Origin: Planctomycetaceae bacterium
Lineage (GTDB): Bacteria > Planctomycetota > Planctomycetia > Pirellulales > Pirellulaceae
DNA length: 64,000 nt
Direction: 5' to 3'
Assembly (NCBI GenBank): GCA_005778405.1
Contig: SXOA01000029.1
Coordinates: 1 to 64,000, forward strand
Positions 22,070-29,744 of this stretch are shown here, piece after piece; position 1 is the first letter of the stretch, and every line of letters starts with the position of its first letter. Both the position numbers and the translations under genes were made by a program. Below the pieces are notes generated by a model, which was given only the letters and a program-made list of their open reading frames with translations, was not told where the DNA came from and searched no databases.

Positions 22070-22125
22070 TTTCAGTTTTCAGTGTTCAGTGTTCAGATTT
22101 CATTCGTCATTCGAATTTCGTCATT
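22070..22125. repeat. TTCAG tandem plus half of the CATTCGTCATT palindrome, copy 2
   Basis: Short tandem units TTTTCAG / TGTTCAG at about 22069-22096 lead into CATTCGTCATTCGAATTTCG-TCATT, the right half of the family seen at 17834. The final TTA of the element is the korA stop codon (minus strand). The matching left arm is missing, so this copy looks truncated. Confidence 0.75.
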
Positions 22126-24073
22126 AGCCACCGGCGTCTCCACTCCCGGCAATTCCCGACACGGCGGCGGTTGCCGTCGGCTTCGACCCGTTCGCGCTGG
22201 CCAGGCCAAGCTGTCCGCGGATGGCGGCGACGACTTCCTGGACGAAGAACGGGCGTCCCTGGATCTTGTTGAGCCCCTGGGCATCGACCAGGTACTTGGA
22301 GCGGATGATCATCCGGAGCTGTCCCTTGTTGAGCTCGGGGACGAGAACTTTCTTGTATCGCTTGAGGACGTCTCCCAGGTTTCGCGGGAACGGGTTGAGC
22401 CACCGCAGGTGCGCGTGAGCGACCTTGATCCCTTGCTCCTGGCATTGCTCCACGGCGGTCTTGCAGGCACCGTAAGTGCCACCCCAACTGAGCACGAGCA
22501 AGTCGCCGGTCTCCGGCCCTTCCACTTCCTGCAAGCCGATAAGCTGGGCGACGTTATCGACCTTCTTTGCTCGAGTGTGGACCATGTGCTCGTGGTTCTC
22601 GGGCTCGTAGTTCACGTTTCCGGTCACGTCCTGCTTTTCCAGACCGCCGAGACGATGCATGAGTCCCTTGATGCCCGGGATGCCCCAGGGACGAGCCAAC
22701 AATTCGTCCCGCTGATAGGGCTTGAATTTCTCGCCGTTTTCGCTCGGAACGGGATGGTGAATCGGGATTTTTTCCAGCTTGTTGTAATCGGGAATTAGCC
22801 ACGGTTCGCTGCCGTTGGCAATGTAGCCGTCAGACAGGACCATCACCGGCACCATCATGCGGCTGGAGATCCGCCAGGCTTCGATAGCCGCGTCAAAACA
22901 GTCGCCAGGGCTGCGAGCGGCGATGACGGGCATCGGCGACTCACCATTGCGGCCGAGAATCGCCTGGAATAGGTCAGCTTGCTCGGTTTTTGTGGGAAGT
23001 CCAGTGCTCGGTCCGCCGCGCTGAATATTAATGACGAGGAGAGGCAGCTCCAGCATGATGGCCAGGCCAATTCCCTCCCCCTTGAGGGCGATGCCGGGAC
23101 CGCTGGAAGTGGTGATGCCCATAGCGCCGCCGTAGGCCGCGCCGATGGCCGAACAGACAGCGGCGATTTCGTCTTCCGCCTGGAAAGTTCGCACGCCGAA
23201 GTTTTTGAACTTGGAAAGCTCGTGCAAAATGTCGCTGGCCGGAGTAATCGGATACGAGCCGAGGAACAACTCCTTGCCGCTCAGCTTGGCCGCGGTCATC
23301 AAGCCCCACGCCATCGCGGTATTCCCCTTCATGTTCTTGTACTTGCCCGGGGGGAGTTGGGCAGGCTCCACCTTGTAGCTGCTGGTAAAAGCGTCGGTCG
23401 TTTCGCCATAATTCCAGCCCGCCCGCATGGCCTTGGTGTTTGCGGCAATGATCTCCGGCTTATTGGAGAACTTCGACTGTAAATAGCGAAGGGTCGGCTC
23501 CTGGTCCCGTCCGTAGAGCCAATAGACCAATCCCAGCGCGAAGAAGTTCTTGCAGCGGTCAACCTCCTTGGTTCCCAGACCGGTGTCTTTCAGGGCTTCT
23601 CGCGTGATCTTCGTCATCTGCACTTTGAAGAGCTGGTACTGATCCTCCAGAACCTGGCTATCGAGCGGGTTGACATCGTAGCCCGCCAGATCCAGGTCGC
23701 TCTTCTGAAAGTTGTCGCTGTTGCAAATGAGGATGCCACCCTTCCGCAAGTCGCGCAGGTTCGTCTTGAGAGCGGCCGGGTTCATCACGACAAGCGCGTC
23801 GAGAGTATCTCCGGGCGTGAAAATGTCTTCGCTGGAAAAATGGACTTGAAAACCGGAGACACCGGCCAGCGTGCCGCGGGGAGCACGAATCTCAGCCGGG
23901 TAATCAGGGAAAGTGGCCACGTCGTTCCCCAGCAGGGCGGACGTGCTGGTGAACTGGTCCCCAGTGATTTGCATGCCGTCCCCGGAGTCGCCACAAAAGC
24001 GGATCGTCGCGCTGGGGACCGGATTGACTGTCTTGGGATTTGCTACTTCTGGCTCAGCCGTAGTGGTGGTCAT
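22124..24073 (-). CDS. korA: 2-oxoacid:ferredoxin oxidoreductase, alpha subunit (gamma-alpha fusion)
   Basis: The 649-residue chain joins an N-terminal gamma domain (RFCGDSGDGMQITGDQ, then FPDYPAEIRAPRGTLAGVSGFQVHFS, about 15-190) to the alpha (pyrimidine-binding) domain from about 240 (GNTAMAWGLMTAAKLSGKELFLGSYPITPASDILHELS; GISTSSGPGI-like TTSSGPGIALKGEGIGLA; RGGPSTGLPTKTEQADL). It partners with KorB. The ATG at 24073 is taken; an in-frame TTG nine bases upstream has a better-spaced AAGGG and is a real alternative. The gene is downstream of a CBS protein on the same strand (196-base gap), which could sense adenine nucleotides. Confidence 0.93.
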   Translation of the reverse strand: MTTTTAEPEVANPKTVNPVPSATIRFCGDSGDGMQITGDQFTSTSALLGNDVATFPDYPAEIRAPRGTLAGVSGFQVHFSSEDIFTPGDTLDALVVMNPAALKTNLRDLRKGGILICNSDNFQKSDLDLAGYDVNPLDSQVLEDQYQLFKVQMTKITREALKDTGLGTKEVDRCKNFFALGLVYWLYGRDQEPTLRYLQSKFSNKPEIIAANTKAMRAGWNYGETTDAFTSSYKVEPAQLPPGKYKNMKGNTAMAWGLMTAAKLSGKELFLGSYPITPASDILHELSKFKNFGVRTFQAEDEIAAVCSAIGAAYGGAMGITTSSGPGIALKGEGIGLAIMLELPLLVINIQRGGPSTGLPTKTEQADLFQAILGRNGESPMPVIAARSPGDCFDAAIEAWRISSRMMVPVMVLSDGYIANGSEPWLIPDYNKLEKIPIHHPVPSENGEKFKPYQRDELLARPWGIPGIKGLMHRLGGLEKQDVTGNVNYEPENHEHMVHTRAKKVDNVAQLIGLQEVEGPETGDLLVLSWGGTYGACKTAVEQCQEQGIKVAHAHLRWLNPFPRNLGDVLKRYKKVLVPELNKGQLRMIIRSKYLVDAQGLNKIQGRPFFVQEVVAAIRGQLGLASANGSKPTATAAVSGIAGSGDAGG

Positions 24074-24269
24074 GACTGGCAATCTGCCCTTTTGAAATCA
24101 GTGTTCGCGTGAATTTTAGTTTTATCGGCGGCCGCTCGTAGGGCGGCGGAATGTCTCTTGGCAAAGGCCCGGCAAACGGGTCAATCAGTATCGGACTTTC
24201 TGAATAATAACTCTATTTGGAATGTACGGCCCGAAAAACGGACCGATTTGTAACGAAAATGAGGGCTGT

Positions 24270-25173: not shown

Positions 25174-25509
25174 ATGACTACCAAACGGTTTATCCTCAAT
25201 TCTTCCCGGAGTTCGCAGCAAGGAGCGTTGATCAACGTGGGGAAGGAATCGCCAGAGTATTTGGCGCTGACCAATTCGATGACGATGGCCCAAAAGGACA
25301 TGGCGGAAATCGGTCTGGCGGAGGGTCAGATGGCGATGGTTCGCACCGAGTTTGGCGAAGCACCTTTCAAGTGTGAGTCCGGGAAAGTGCCTGAAGGGAT
25401 GATTTTTGTTCCCTACGGTCCCCCCACGTGTAAACTGATGGGTGGAGACACGGGCGGCACCGGAATGCCAACCTCCAAGGGTTGGGAAGTCGAAGTCGTT
25501 CCCTTATAA
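25174..25509 (+). CDS. fwdD: Formylmethanofuran dehydrogenase subunit D-like (molybdopterin dinucleotide-binding)
   Basis: The 111-residue protein is the separate molybdopterin-dinucleotide-binding subunit of Fwd/Fmd. Its C-terminal segment GMIFVPYGPPTCKLMGGDTGGTGMPTSKGWEVEV follows the FwdD pattern (GMVFIPxGPxxN...TGMPxFKG), and RTIEQG-like SRSSQQGALINVGKESPEY opens the family. The D subunit completes the active-site clamp over the metal with subunit B. It is absent from the metal-free Fhc complex of aerobic methylotrophs, so its presence supports a true dehydrogenase. First gene of the cluster; fwdB follows after 405 bases containing one possible small gene. Confidence 0.85.
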   Translation: MTTKRFILNSSRSSQQGALINVGKESPEYLALTNSMTMAQKDMAEIGLAEGQMAMVRTEFGEAPFKCESGKVPEGMIFVPYGPPTCKLMGGDTGGTGMPTSKGWEVEVVPL

Positions 25510-25581: not shown

Positions 25582-25743
25582 ATGCTTCAAAAACCAGTTC
25601 TCGAGTCACCGGCCGGATCGGACGGACCTCATTTTTCCTTTGCGGAAGAGGGGGCAAGCGTAGCGGGCTGGACCGAGATCGAAGCGGGTCGATTCATGCC
25701 TCGCCGCGTGCGCGGCAGCTATCAGGGACGGGCACTGGGCTGA
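25582..25743 (+). CDS. Possible small protein between fwdD and fwdB
   Basis: A 53-residue frame beginning with ATG after AGAGGATTCTCAGC (a weak but plausible ribosome site). The C-terminal half is strongly basic with the pattern GWTEIEAGRFMPRRVRGSYQ followed by GRALG. It reads like a genuine short protein: codons are GC-biased like the neighbours. I have an impression that this ending recurs in short planctomycete proteins, but I cannot name a family. No function proposed. The remaining bases 25744-25914 show nothing recognisable. Confidence 0.4.
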   Translation: MLQKPVLESPAGSDGPHFSFAEEGASVAGWTEIEAGRFMPRRVRGSYQGRALG

Positions 25744-25914
25744 GTGTTTACCGTTCCCTCGTCCGGTTCGGACGACACACAGTGCCAAGAGAAGCAATAA
25801 CAACAACAGCGATTTTGAGGAAAGGTAATCACGCCGCAGACCGGGTAAACTGCCGGCAACTAACTGTTGCCCACCGGAATGCGATCGTGAAGCCTACGAT
25901 CATGAACCATCTCC

Positions 25915-27255
25915 ATGGAACTTCAGGTAATCAATAACGCCACGTGCACGTTTTGCGGCTGCGTTTGCGACGACATTCAACTCCATCATGACGACGTTCG
26001 CATCCACAAGGCGAACAAAGCCTGCGTGCTGGGAACCGCCTGGTTTCTGAACCACACGGCAGAAAAAAAATATCCCGACGCCCTGATTGATGGCCGGGAA
26101 GCGACTCTGGACGAGGCGATTGAAGCAGCCGCCAATTTCCTCTACGAAGCCGACATGCCGCTGGTCTACGGCATGAGCAACACGACCTGTGAGGCTCAAA
26201 AGGAATGTGTCGCCCTGGCGGACCAGCTCGGGGGGCTGCTCGACAGCCACACTTCGTTGTGACACGGTCCCACCGAGATCGCCGCCCAGTTGGGCGGCAA
26301 AGTTACTTGTACGCTGGGCGAAGTCAAACAACGAGCCGATTTCATCATCTACTGGGGAGGGAATCCCGCGGAGTGCCATCCACGGCATTTCACCAAGTAC
26401 ACCATCATGCAGAAGAGCAAGTTTCTGCCCCGCGGCCGCAAGGACCGCACGATGGTGCTGGTCGATATCCGCGAAACCAAGAGCGCCAAAGCCGCCGACA
26501 TTTTTCTGCAGGTGCGGCCCGGCAAGGACTTCGAGTTGATCACCATCCTCCGGGCTCTCATTAAGGATCGGCAGGTCAGCGACCAGGCGATTGCGGAGAC
26601 GGGCCTGACGCGGGAGGTGATCGACGACCTGATCCGGCGGATGAAGGGGGCCAAGTTCGGCTGCGTATTTTTTGGGATGGGGCTGTCCATGACGCGCGGC
26701 AAGCACATGAACAGCGCCGCGCTGCTCACGCTGGCCGCGGAAATGAACGCCTTCACCAAGTTCGTGGCCATGCCCATGCGAGGCCACGGCAATGTCACAG
26801 GTGCCGACGTCATCATGCGGTGGCAGACCGGCTATCCCTTCGGAATTTCCTTTAGCCGCGGCTATCCGCGCTATAATCCCGGCGAGTTCTCCACCGTGGA
26901 CGTGCTGGTTCGCGGCGACTGCGACGCAGCTTTCATCATTGGAGCCGATCCCGGCGCGACAATGCCCCAGCCGGCGATTGACCACCTGAAGCGGATTCCG
27001 ACCATTGTGCTGGACCCGCACGTCACGCACACCAGTAAGCTGTCGCGGGTCCACATCACCACGGCTCCACAGGGAATCGCCGCACCGGGAACGGCTTATC
27101 GGATGGACGAGCTTCCCATGCCATTGAAACCCGCCCTGAAATCCCCGTACCCTTCCGATGAAGAAGTCGTCCGCCGGATTAACGAGGCGATTGCCAAAAA
27201 GCCGTTCTGGCTCCCCGACGGAAGTCAGCCCCAGATGCTCAACGCACAGGTATAA
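25915..27255 (+). CDS. fwdB: Formylmethanofuran dehydrogenase subunit B, selenocysteine-containing (in-frame TGA at 26260)
   Basis: Catalytic subunit that would reduce CO2 to formate (or oxidise formate) at a Mo/W-bis-pterin centre, with FwdA handling formate and the C1 carrier. Read as one frame of 446 residues, the N-terminus has a [4Fe-4S] motif Cys11-x2-Cys14-x3-Cys18 ... Cys37 (CTFCGCVCDD; KACVLG). TGA codon 116 lies in HTSL-U-HGPTEIAAQ; in FwdB/FmdB the metal ligand at this spot is Cys or Sec, next to a conserved His-Gly-Pro. The downstream frame stays open and conserved to 27255 (DFIIYWGGNPAECHPRH; RPGKDFELI; YWGGN). A hairpin of bacterial SECIS form follows the TGA. Alternatives: a nonsense mutation or base error. 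Split annotation as 25915-26262 and 26290-27255 would be wrong if Sec is inserted. Confidence 0.85.
26260..26298 (+). promoter_or_regulatory. UGA selenocysteine codon with bacterial-type SECIS hairpin
   Basis: TGA 26260-26262 is followed by a perfect 7-bp stem GCCGCCC (26281-26287) / GGGCGGC (26292-26298) closing the tetraloop AGTT (26288-26291). Twenty-five bases separate the TGA from the loop, and a G is the second loop base; bacterial SECIS elements lie within the coding sequence just after UGA with a short stem and a G early in a small apical loop. Archaeal SECIS elements lie in untranslated regions instead, so this form fits a bacterial SelB. Confidence 0.75.
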
Positions 27256-27264
27256 TCCCACTCC

Positions 27265-28905
27265 ATGCTTCGCATCACGGGCGGAAAAGTCTACGACCCA
27301 GCCAACGGCATCGACGGCGTCGTCAAGGATCTGTGCATCGACGACCAGGGCCTGTTCGTTCCCGCGGTGGAAGGTGGCCGAACGATCGACGCGACAGGAA
27401 TGATTGTCTTTCCCGGCGGCGTGGACGTTCACACGCACGTGGCCGGCGGCGCGATCAATTTCGCCCGAGCCATGACGCCGGAGGATCATCGCCGCACCCA
27501 GGCGTTCATTCGCACCAAGTCGCGCCGCAGTGGATTGGGCGGCATGGCCCCCACCACCTTCGCCACCGGCTATCTCTATGCCGGCATGGGCTGGACAACG
27601 GTCAACGAAGCGGCTGTGCCGGTCCTATCCGCCCGGCACACGCACGAAGAGCTGGCCGATATTCCAATTGTGGATAAAGCTTCGCTGACGCTGATGGCGA
27701 ACAACGAGATCCTGCTCGATCAGCTCGAAAAGGGAGAATTCGAGCGTGCCAAGCAGGTTCTCGCCTGGTATCTCTGGTCGGCCAAGTCCTACGGCATCAA
27801 GGCGGTCAATCCGGGCGGAGTCGCGGCTTGGAAATATGGCCACGACGCCAAGCAGCTCACGTCACCCATTGATGGCTACAGCAAGCTGACCCCCGGCGTG
27901 ATTGTGACTCACCTCGCCCGGATTTGCGATGAGCTTGGCCTGCCGCATCCGGTCCATTTGCACTGCAACAATCTCGGCGCTCCCGGCAACATCTCGACGA
28001 CAATCGACACTCTAAAGCACCTAGAAGGGCACCGGGCCCACATTGCCCATTCTCAGTACCACGCCTACGGCGGCGATGGCTGGGACACCATGTGCTCGGA
28101 AACGGCTCAGCTTGCCGAATACTTCAACGCCCATCCGAGCATCACGACCGATGCGGGAGCCGTCTTGTTCGGCGACACGGTGACCATTACCGCTGACGGA
28201 CCATGGCAGCACCTGCTGTACAAGCTGACCGGGCGGAAATGGGGGAACCTGGACGTCGAAAACGAAACGGGCTGCGGCATCGTCCCCTACACCTACCGCC
28301 CCAGCAACCTCGTCAACGCGGTGCAATGGGCGGCTGGGCTGGAGCTGCTGCTGCTCATCAAGAATCCGTGGCAAGTATTTCTCTCCACCGACCACCCCAA
28401 CGGCGGCTGCTTTTGGCGGTATCCGGAGATTATCGAGTTGCTGATGCGGGCGGATGTTCGCAAAGAATCCCTTCTGAAACTCCCCGACGGCATCAAGGGA
28501 AAAATCACGCTGCCGGAGATTGACCGCGAGTATTCGCTCTATGAAGTCGCCATCTCCATGTCAGCCGGCCCGGCGCGGGCGCTGGGGCTGTTCCAAAAGG
28601 GCAACCTTGGCCTGGGCTGCGATGGCGATGTGGTGATTTATGAAGAAGACGAAAACGTGCGGAAAATGTTCGGCCATCCGCGCTATGTCATCAAAGGAGG
28701 GGAGATCGTGCTGGAAGACGGCGAGATTCGTGAAGCGCCGTCAGGACGCGAGTTCATCGTGAAACCGCCATGCGACCCCGGCATCGACGATTTCATGAGG
28801 CCGCTGTTCGAGGACTGCTACACCATGTCGTTTGAGAACTATCCGGTGGAAATGGAGCGCATCCACAACCCCAGGATGCAAGACTGCATCGAAGTGCCAC
28901 GCTAA
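27265..28905 (+). CDS. fwdA: Formylmethanofuran dehydrogenase subunit A (amidohydrolase)
   Basis: A 546-residue amidohydrolase-superfamily subunit with a binuclear metal site that interconverts formate plus the amine C1 carrier (methanofuran or a bacterial analogue) and the formyl carrier. Visible ligands: His56 and His58 in GVDVHTHVAGG, a candidate carboxylated Lys179 in GIKAVNPGG, HLHCNN (231-236), RAHIAHSQYHAYGG (257-270) and STDHPNGG near 400. Length and motifs match FwdA/FhcA. It begins nine bases after fwdB ends, so the two are clearly one operon. The carrier in planctomycetes is inferred. Confidence 0.95.
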   Translation: MLRITGGKVYDPANGIDGVVKDLCIDDQGLFVPAVEGGRTIDATGMIVFPGGVDVHTHVAGGAINFARAMTPEDHRRTQAFIRTKSRRSGLGGMAPTTFATGYLYAGMGWTTVNEAAVPVLSARHTHEELADIPIVDKASLTLMANNEILLDQLEKGEFERAKQVLAWYLWSAKSYGIKAVNPGGVAAWKYGHDAKQLTSPIDGYSKLTPGVIVTHLARICDELGLPHPVHLHCNNLGAPGNISTTIDTLKHLEGHRAHIAHSQYHAYGGDGWDTMCSETAQLAEYFNAHPSITTDAGAVLFGDTVTITADGPWQHLLYKLTGRKWGNLDVENETGCGIVPYTYRPSNLVNAVQWAAGLELLLLIKNPWQVFLSTDHPNGGCFWRYPEIIELLMRADVRKESLLKLPDGIKGKITLPEIDREYSLYEVAISMSAGPARALGLFQKGNLGLGCDGDVVIYEEDENVRKMFGHPRYVIKGGEIVLEDGEIREAPSGREFIVKPPCDPGIDDFMRPLFEDCYTMSFENYPVEMERIHNPRMQDCIEVPR

Positions 28906-28928
28906 CTGTGCTTGCCGGGAAGTCAGGA

Positions 28929-29744
28929 ATGCCCATCACCTTTCACCTCAAACGCCAGCCCTCGGTTCCCCTGGAGTCCGAGGTCTTCTCGCCGGATGTC
29001 ATGGCGGAGCTGACCAATACCGAAATCCGTGCACTCACCATCTATCACGGCAAACGGCAGCTCCCCATCAGCGACTTTTTTGACGTCGAAGGGGAACGGA
29101 GCGAAGACCTGGTGATGCATGGCGCGATGCACAAGGTCCGCTGGATTGGCCGGGCCATGTCCAGGGGGAGCATCACCGTGCATGGCACGGTCGGGATGCA
29201 CCTGGGAGCCTACATGAAGGGGGGCCGCATCGAGGTCCACGGCAACGCCAGCGACTGGATCGGAGCCGAAATGAAGAATGGCTTCATCCACGTCCACGGC
29301 AATGCCGGCGGGCAGATTGGCGCCGCTTACCGCGGCTCGATGCAGGGGATGAAAAACGGCACCATCATCATCGACGGTTCAGCAGGGCTCGAAGTCGGCA
29401 TGCGGATGCGTCGGGGAACGATCATCGTCGGCGGCCCCGCCAAGGACTTCACCGGCCTGCAAATGAAAGGGGGGACCATTGTCCTGATGAGCGGCGCCGA
29501 AATCCGCACTGGCGCCTGGATGAACCGCGGCACCATTATCTCCCTCAAGCCGCTGCAACTGATGCCCACCTTCGTCCGCTCGGTGGACGCCAGCCCCATG
29601 TTTGTGAACGTCCTGGCCAAGAATCTCAAATCGCTTGGAATCAACTTGCCCCACAAGGCCAGCGAGGGGACTTACCGGCAGTTCGCGGGGGACCTGAGTG
29701 TTTCTGATAAGGGGGAAATCCTGGTCTGGCAACCCGTTGCATAG
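28929..29744 (+). CDS. fwdC: Formylmethanofuran dehydrogenase subunit C
   Basis: Structural subunit with a right-handed beta-helix related to the glutamate synthase GXGXG domain. The 271 residues contain the repeating pattern GxxxHGxxGxxxGxxMxxGxI, such as GSITVHGTVGMHLGAYMKGG, GRIEVHGNASDWIGAEMKNG, GFIHVHGNAGGQIG and GTIIIDGSAGLEVGMRMRRG. The ATG at 28929 (AGTCAGGA upstream; MPITFHLK) is preferred to the GTG at 28908. It closes the D-B-A-C series; no formyltransferase (Ftr/FhcD), polyferredoxin (FwdF/G) or mch gene follows within the window. Confidence 0.93.
   Translation: MPITFHLKRQPSVPLESEVFSPDVMAELTNTEIRALTIYHGKRQLPISDFFDVEGERSEDLVMHGAMHKVRWIGRAMSRGSITVHGTVGMHLGAYMKGGRIEVHGNASDWIGAEMKNGFIHVHGNAGGQIGAAYRGSMQGMKNGTIIIDGSAGLEVGMRMRRGTIIVGGPAKDFTGLQMKGGTIVLMSGAEIRTGAWMNRGTIISLKPLQLMPTFVRSVDASPMFVNVLAKNLKSLGINLPHKASEGTYRQFAGDLSVSDKGEILVWQPVA

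Follow-up and report, generated by a model that had tools for sequence, protein, structure and literature searches.

The SECIS of the E. coli gene fdhF, a hairpin in the coding frame just after the UGA with G-U at positions 2-3 of its loop, has a stem with a bulged U that is important for its function. In archaea, the SECIS has been located in the 3' UTR (PMC1088965), and methanogens such as Methanopyrus kandleri possess a selenium-dependent FwdB with selenocysteine at the motif UHGP alongside a Cys isoenzyme (PMC4807772, PMC13188914). In bacteria, a Sec-type fmdB has been reported in 2016 for the planctomycete P2, with the presence of a SECIS among the criteria (PMC4807772); as far as this article without its supplements is concerned, neither a small gene between fmdD and fmdB is named nor a comparative analysis of the SECIS included.

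The locus described here derives from a Planctomycetaceae bacterium of the Pirellulaceae (GCA_005778405.1) and lies in a window of 64,000 nt, by which the whole stretch of DNA analysed, positions 1-64,000 of the forward strand of contig SXOA01000029.1, is meant. With planctomycete P2 it shares the Sec-type FmdB, the gene order fmdD-fmdB-fmdA-fmdC and a second, Cys-type copy in the genome (PMC4807772). Planctomycete fmdB of the Sec type has been published before, and the present locus is a further, well-supported member. The features of the operon are the following:

25174-25509, forward strand: fmdD, molybdopterin dinucleotide-binding subunit (Pfam PF01568, 35.6 bits against a cut-off of 26.8)
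25582-25800, forward strand: proposed small selenoprotein gene, about 72 aa, with Sec as predicted residue 54 and a presumed start ATG at 25582
25741-25743, forward strand: in-frame TGA of the small gene, proposed Sec codon, kept in 75/75 homologues upstream of fmdB
25759-25775, forward strand: putative SECIS of the small gene, TCGTCCG-GTT-CGGACGA, loop 22 nt after the TGA, with covariation
25915-27255, forward strand: fmdB/fwdB, 446 aa, with Sec as predicted residue 116 (TIGR03129 above cut-off; translation)
26260-26262, forward strand: in-frame TGA of fmdB, very probable Sec codon, TGA in 87/87 distinct Sec-clade loci
26281-26298, forward strand: very probable SECIS of fmdB, GCCGCCC-AGTT-GGGCGGC, loop 25 nt after the TGA (geometry and conservation)
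27265-28905, forward strand: fmdA, amidohydrolase subunit (Pfam PF07969)
28908-29744, forward strand: fmdC, GXGXG subunit (Pfam PF01493)

The names FmdA (27265-28905) and FmdC (28908-29744) are presumed from operon order. The frame 25915-27255 matches the curated equivalog TIGR03129 (FmdB/FwdB) with 496.6 bits against a cut-off of 327.8 and is interrupted solely by the TGA at 26260-26262, situated at the known Cys/Sec position (UHGP), where the nearest other homologues have Cys. The N-terminal four-Cys [4Fe-4S] motif typical of FmdB/FwdB is intact in this FmdB and was found by pattern in 82/87 Sec loci. The second fmdB of the genome, a Cys form (TASLCHAP) with 45% identity, is located on contig C178 (L134:3948-5267, minus strand); beside it, an ORF resembling the radical-SAM cofactor gene moaA was noticed by eye from the sequence. 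Two further frames at the fmd operon are on the minus strand. A 529-aa antisense open frame across fmdB (25900-27489) is probably a codon-usage shadow of the G+C-rich sequence, and a 2-oxoacid:ferredoxin oxidoreductase subunit with Pfam POR domains (22124-24082) adjoins the operon; this oxidoreductase is without a match in the other 86 Sec loci, for most of which up to 5 kb of upstream sequence was available.

The original prediction had placed a SECIS-like hairpin in fmdB, and its geometry could be read directly from the sequence: 18 nt after the TGA a perfect 7-bp stem begins (GCCGCCC 26281-26287, GGGCGGC 26292-26298) that encloses the loop AGTT (26288-26291), which starts 25 nt after the TGA with G as second base. 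Equally, the predicted position within the coding frame was confirmed, as the frame 25915-27255 is open past the TGA and encodes FmdB. The suggested bacterial SECIS search was conducted with constraints taken from the legend of Fig. 2A in PMC13188914, coded as a loop of 3-9 nt on a stem of 4-16 bp, G within the first two loop positions, a distance of 16-37 nt from the UGA to the apical loop and a free energy of -7.5 kcal/mol or lower. The fmdB hairpin agrees with all four published constraints, having a loop of 4 nt and a stem of 7 bp, G in the first two loop positions (AGTT, the G being invariant), a distance of 25 nt and a free energy of -15.0 kcal/mol. Compared with fdhF, location in the coding frame and loop G-U are shared, while the loop is AGUU at 25 nt instead of GGUC at 18 nt after the UGA and the stem is a perfect 7 bp instead of bulged. 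The strict model allowed uninterrupted stems only, so that even fdhF fails; the fdhF stretch used for this comparison agreed with the fdhF entries of E. coli to at least 99%. In the window, 111 of 1808 TGA triplets (6%) pass the strict model by chance, 82 of them with a stem of at least 7 bp and 30 with such a stem and -11 kcal or better. With 30/1808 triplets at comparable quality, the hairpin of the single sequence is only moderately unusual.

It is the comparison of orthologues rather than single-sequence geometry that is decisive for the proposed fmdB SECIS. Relatives of fmdB were the best 80 of 410 confirmed stretches from a scan of genome contigs, which skews this sample to close relatives; the phylum sample comprised 392 genomes, with fmdB in 44 and TGA-fmdB, at 71% identity or more, in 10. 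Both sources together gave 91 TGA-fmdB loci, 87 of them distinct after removal of four duplicates (L013, L014, L016, L017). Codons 125-126 are CAG-TTG in 87/87 orthologues, compared to 63.0 (CAG) and 17.4 (TTG) expected from codon usage elsewhere in the same genes, and are the only columns with zero synonymous entropy among 288 scored. GCY at codon 124 is found in 87/87 (expected 45.6) and GGY at codon 127 in 85/87 (expected 58.7), and at codons 123, 124, 127 and 128 the wobble base within the stem is a pyrimidine in 85, 87, 85 and 82 of 87 loci (expected 45.6, 45.6, 58.7 and 58.7). All seven pairs and AGTT are present in 78/87 loci, with one mismatched pair in each of the remaining nine; 83/87 loci pass the strict SECIS model and 4/87 miss a constraint. 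Neither of the two findings named beforehand as speaking against a SECIS was obtained: TGA orthologues without the hairpin amount to 0/87, and codon bias does not explain the structure, as only 1.7% of 20,000 synonymous codon draws produce the full form seen in those 78 loci. Nor is the hairpin a property of versions with another residue, since 15 of 18 scored non-Sec homologues (11 Cys, 5 Gly, 1 Ser, 1 Phe) lack a qualifying hairpin; three (L023, L024, L030) possess a different one, with the AGTT loop in none. The non-Sec comparisons were made without the near copies L131 and L133 and the fragment L038, and the hairpin scoring without L039, L040 and L042, which are gapped at the Sec position.

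Stem covariation, on the other hand, did not emerge as envisaged: among 34 distinct rows there was no pair with changes on both sides, because each stem wobble base pairs with a codon-fixed base and the only possible swaps are C-G/U-G and G-C/G-U. As this outcome is predicted by the codon layout, it is neutral with respect to the fmdB stem. At the same place, the Sec forms read IAAQLGGKV and the nearest Cys forms about MAFQGVGEV, so that even the amino acid sequence seems adapted to the RNA. An alternative in which the fmdB TGA is a true stop in a broken gene or an assembly error, and the hairpin a product of codon bias, could draw on the general chance rate of 111/1808 only; the recurrence of this TGA in 87 distinct loci, the wobble pattern far from codon usage, the downstream protein conserved at 71-92% identity to the C terminus among these loci and the Sec machinery in the genome make it extremely improbable. 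The fmdB hairpin is thus very probably a bacterial-type SECIS at a SelB-compatible place, with the UGA read as selenocysteine, and in this part the original prediction stands.

The genome carries tRNA-Sec (TCA anticodon), SelA, SelD and SelB with C-terminal winged helices. The tRNA-Sec is encoded elsewhere in the genome, ARAGORN finding no tRNA in the 64-kb window, where a search of Rfam at gathering thresholds equally gave no match. SelB is present in 10/10 TGA-fmdB genomes. At the class level, it occurs in 7/40 genomes including all 5 with TGA-fmdB (p 3e-5); at the phylum level, the association has a p of 0.007 with SelB in 236/392 genomes, too common there for the association to weigh much. 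That Sec-FmdB would be the keeper of the Sec trait in the phylum was considered and discarded with these 236 SelB genomes, TGA-fmdB being found in 10. Other Sec genes in the own genome were sought among three molybdopterin-oxidoreductase matches, all of which are without TGA.

Directly seen for fmdB are the sequence pattern, its conservation and the presence of the machinery genes. Judged by the known biology of SelB, FwdB and FdhF, SelB with Sec-tRNA would bind the G-U of the AGUU loop when the ribosome arrives at the UGA at 26260, and selenocysteine would be inserted as FmdB residue 116, where a ligand of the Mo/W-pterin metal is expected.

The original prediction had also considered an archaeal-type ancestor with a signal rebuilt in bacterial style, and this part was not supported. 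In a tree of 44 FmdB sequences, which included 17 of the 87 Sec loci and left out 70, the planctomycete Sec forms constitute one clade (17 sequences, 100/100), next to which stand nine bacterial Cys forms (91/93), and five archaeal PDB chains form a separate clade (100/100). With bacterial Cys forms as the nearest relatives of the Sec clade, a rebuilt archaeal signal is unsupported. Acquisition of the Sec gene from archaea with conversion of the 3' UTR SECIS into a coding-region SECIS is compatible with the entry of FmdB among the selenoproteins of bacteria and archaea alike in Table 1 of PMC13188914 and with the X at the Sec site of PDB chain 9sfi_Q; against it, this X-bearing chain groups with a Cys chain among the five archaeal sequences, which, in addition to the proximity of the bacterial Cys forms, renders an archaeal origin improbable. 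The methanogen FwdB differs from the planctomycete form in its 3' UTR SECIS (PMC1088965) as in the separate clade of the archaeal chains. On this sample, a Cys-to-Sec change with a new SECIS within bacteria would be the simpler reading. Two observations on other records may be added. L122, titled Acidobacteria, contains a planctomycete-type Sec fmdB (74% identity) together with the small gene discussed below, by transfer or as a misbinned contig, and four contigs of a viral collection (L130-L133) harbour Cys-type fmdB with 53-55% identity, possibly a cellular contamination or a phage-borne copy. Plasmids gave fmdB matches below 60% identity only.

Between fmdD and fmdB lies a gap of 400 nt, in which a 53-aa ORF (25582-25743) ends at a TGA, and its frame continues to 25800. 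By tblastn, 83/86 other Sec loci have a match to the ORF, which in 77 is no more than 700 nt upstream of fmdB (E<0.01), and a motif search that ignored the stop codon located it upstream of fmdB in 75/87 loci. The TGA is kept in 75/75 of these copies and replaced by TAA or TAG in none. Beyond it, Phe at U+2 is found in 75/75 (TTC 41, TTT 34), Val or Ile at the fourth position in 62/75 and Pro at the fifth in 65/75, and differences in the first 15 nt, 2812, 2478 and 5091 at codon positions 1, 2 and 3, are most frequent at position 3. The subsequent hairpin has its loop start 18-22 nt after the TGA and passes the strict SECIS model in 64/75 copies, a constraint being missed in 11/75. Counted from its centre, pairs 3 to 6 are each standard in 75/75, with C-G/T-A and G-C/A-T exchanges. 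Among 64 distinct rows, two-sided changes occur in 45 cells compared to 15.5 upon shuffling (0/500 as high), covariation amounts to 0.347 compared to 0.198 (0/500 as high), and pairing is destroyed when the register is slid. Neck and loop are mostly CC-[G/A]-GT-[T/C] and resemble CC-AGTT-GG of fmdB, as a single shared SelB would require.

A small ORF that truly ends at the TGA, with the subsequent hairpin as another RNA element, would be in line with the short part past the TGA (11-54 aa), which is variable towards its end. Invariant Phe at +2, encoded by both codons in an unpaired stretch, the lack of TAA or TAG in all copies, the fmdB-like SECIS geometry and loop and the co-occurrence with another Sec gene speak for coding beyond the TGA and leave a true end very unlikely. 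We rather propose that a second SECIS at 25759-25775 would serve the UGA at 25741 of a protein of about 72 aa.

The small gene was found for all 87 Sec-fmdB loci, at the locus or in the same genome. One locus with the two genes, L088, belongs to the cultured planctomycete strain K23_9. For the 12 loci without the upstream motif, 11 genomes were searched and 11/11 possess the small gene with TGA: 7 beside fmdB, where the motif pattern had missed it, 2 with fmdD only and 2 at contig ends; the hairpins of these 11 were displayed with a pattern requiring Phe at +2. In the twelfth (L022, G148), the small gene is on a contig end. The order fmdD-small gene-fmdB is seen in 72/75 loci, fmdD not being found in the stretch for the other three. 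From the small-gene end to the fmdB match, the distance is below 100 nt in most of the 75 loci and about 1.4 kb in L109, L113, L120 and L121. Two Pirellulaceae-like genomes (L154, L156) have fmdD and the small gene with no fmdB in the 3.2 kb covered, fmdB being located at L085 and L086. In four Cys operons with recognisable fmdD, the fmdD-fmdB gap is only 21-96 nt. A 57-row profile matches 10/392 phylum genomes below 1e-17, exactly the TGA-fmdB genomes with one TGA each, and 0/382 others; five matches at 0.003-0.008 (G058, G159, G372, G003, G151) were taken as noise. A Cys form of the small protein was not found above noise among the 392 phylum genomes (E<=0.01), while nearly all selenoproteins have Cys homologues (PMC13188914).

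The small protein has no match in NCBIfam and PDB and nothing of note in Pfam, where a lone hit (E 0.051) of 1/57 members was taken as noise. Table 1 of PMC13188914 likewise contains short, functionally uncharacterised Sec proteins that have a bacterial SECIS; compared by name and motif, none of the small selenoproteins equals the GRxLG-U-x-F protein, and the gene is absent from the 119 selenoprotein families of the table. The families of Haft and Tolstoy 2025, compared by name and motif only as they are given in PMC13188914, contain no counterpart. In the literature searched, to which the supplements of PMC4807772 and Haft and Tolstoy 2025 itself did not belong, no description was found. The small gene is thus apparently undescribed, a prior notice being possible.

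An alignment of 57 of the 75 small proteins, with 18 left out, contains 13 invariant residues around the core W...GR[FY]MPRR[IV]RGSxxGRxLG-U-x-F. The AF2 model is poor (pLDDT 60.8, pTM 0.25), with a short beta-hairpin at about residues 30-40 and the chain mostly unordered alone, and therefore too weak for a fold search. With its position just upstream of fmdB, less than 100 nt away in most of the 75 loci, the small ORF could act in cis as a selenium-sensing leader, whereby selenium lets the ribosome pass the UGA, end near the fmdB start and favour fmdB translation, and lack of selenium halts it early at the UGA. Such a leader is doubtful considering the 13 invariant residues in 57 rows, which argue for a protein function, the about 1.4 kb between small gene and fmdB in 4 loci and the two genomes with small gene and fmdD and no fmdB in the 3.2 kb covered. 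The strong conservation of the peptide and its remaining with fmdD where fmdB is not nearby make a role in trans likelier. Co-occurrence with TGA-fmdB, association with fmdD and lack of order of the protein alone in the model suggest that it most likely acts as a maturation factor or small subunit for the Sec form of Fmd.

Taken together, we are highly confident in a reading with 26281-26298 as the SECIS of fmdB, 25759-25775 as the SECIS of the small gene and a role in trans of the small protein, the latter suggested by co-occurrence and position only. The small ORF is proposed to represent a new family of small selenoproteins that would function together with Sec-type Fmd, as the genomic context suggests. 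On balance, we favour a family of about 72 aa that is Sec-only and restricted to Sec-FmdB genomes as an obligate partner that would make, complete or protect the Se-Mo/W site.

The SECIS of fmdB provides clean sequences for testing the planctomycete SelB. Of more importance is the small gene, which, if the proposal is true, represents a new selenoprotein family. Being short, apparently finished at the UGA and without a Cys homologue, such a gene is easily overlooked, and methods based on Cys/Sec pairs would miss it. Its strict co-occurrence with Sec-FmdB raises the question of a dedicated selenium-containing helper for selenium at a bacterial Mo/W site; if true, the small protein would be a selenoprotein dedicated to another selenoprotein.
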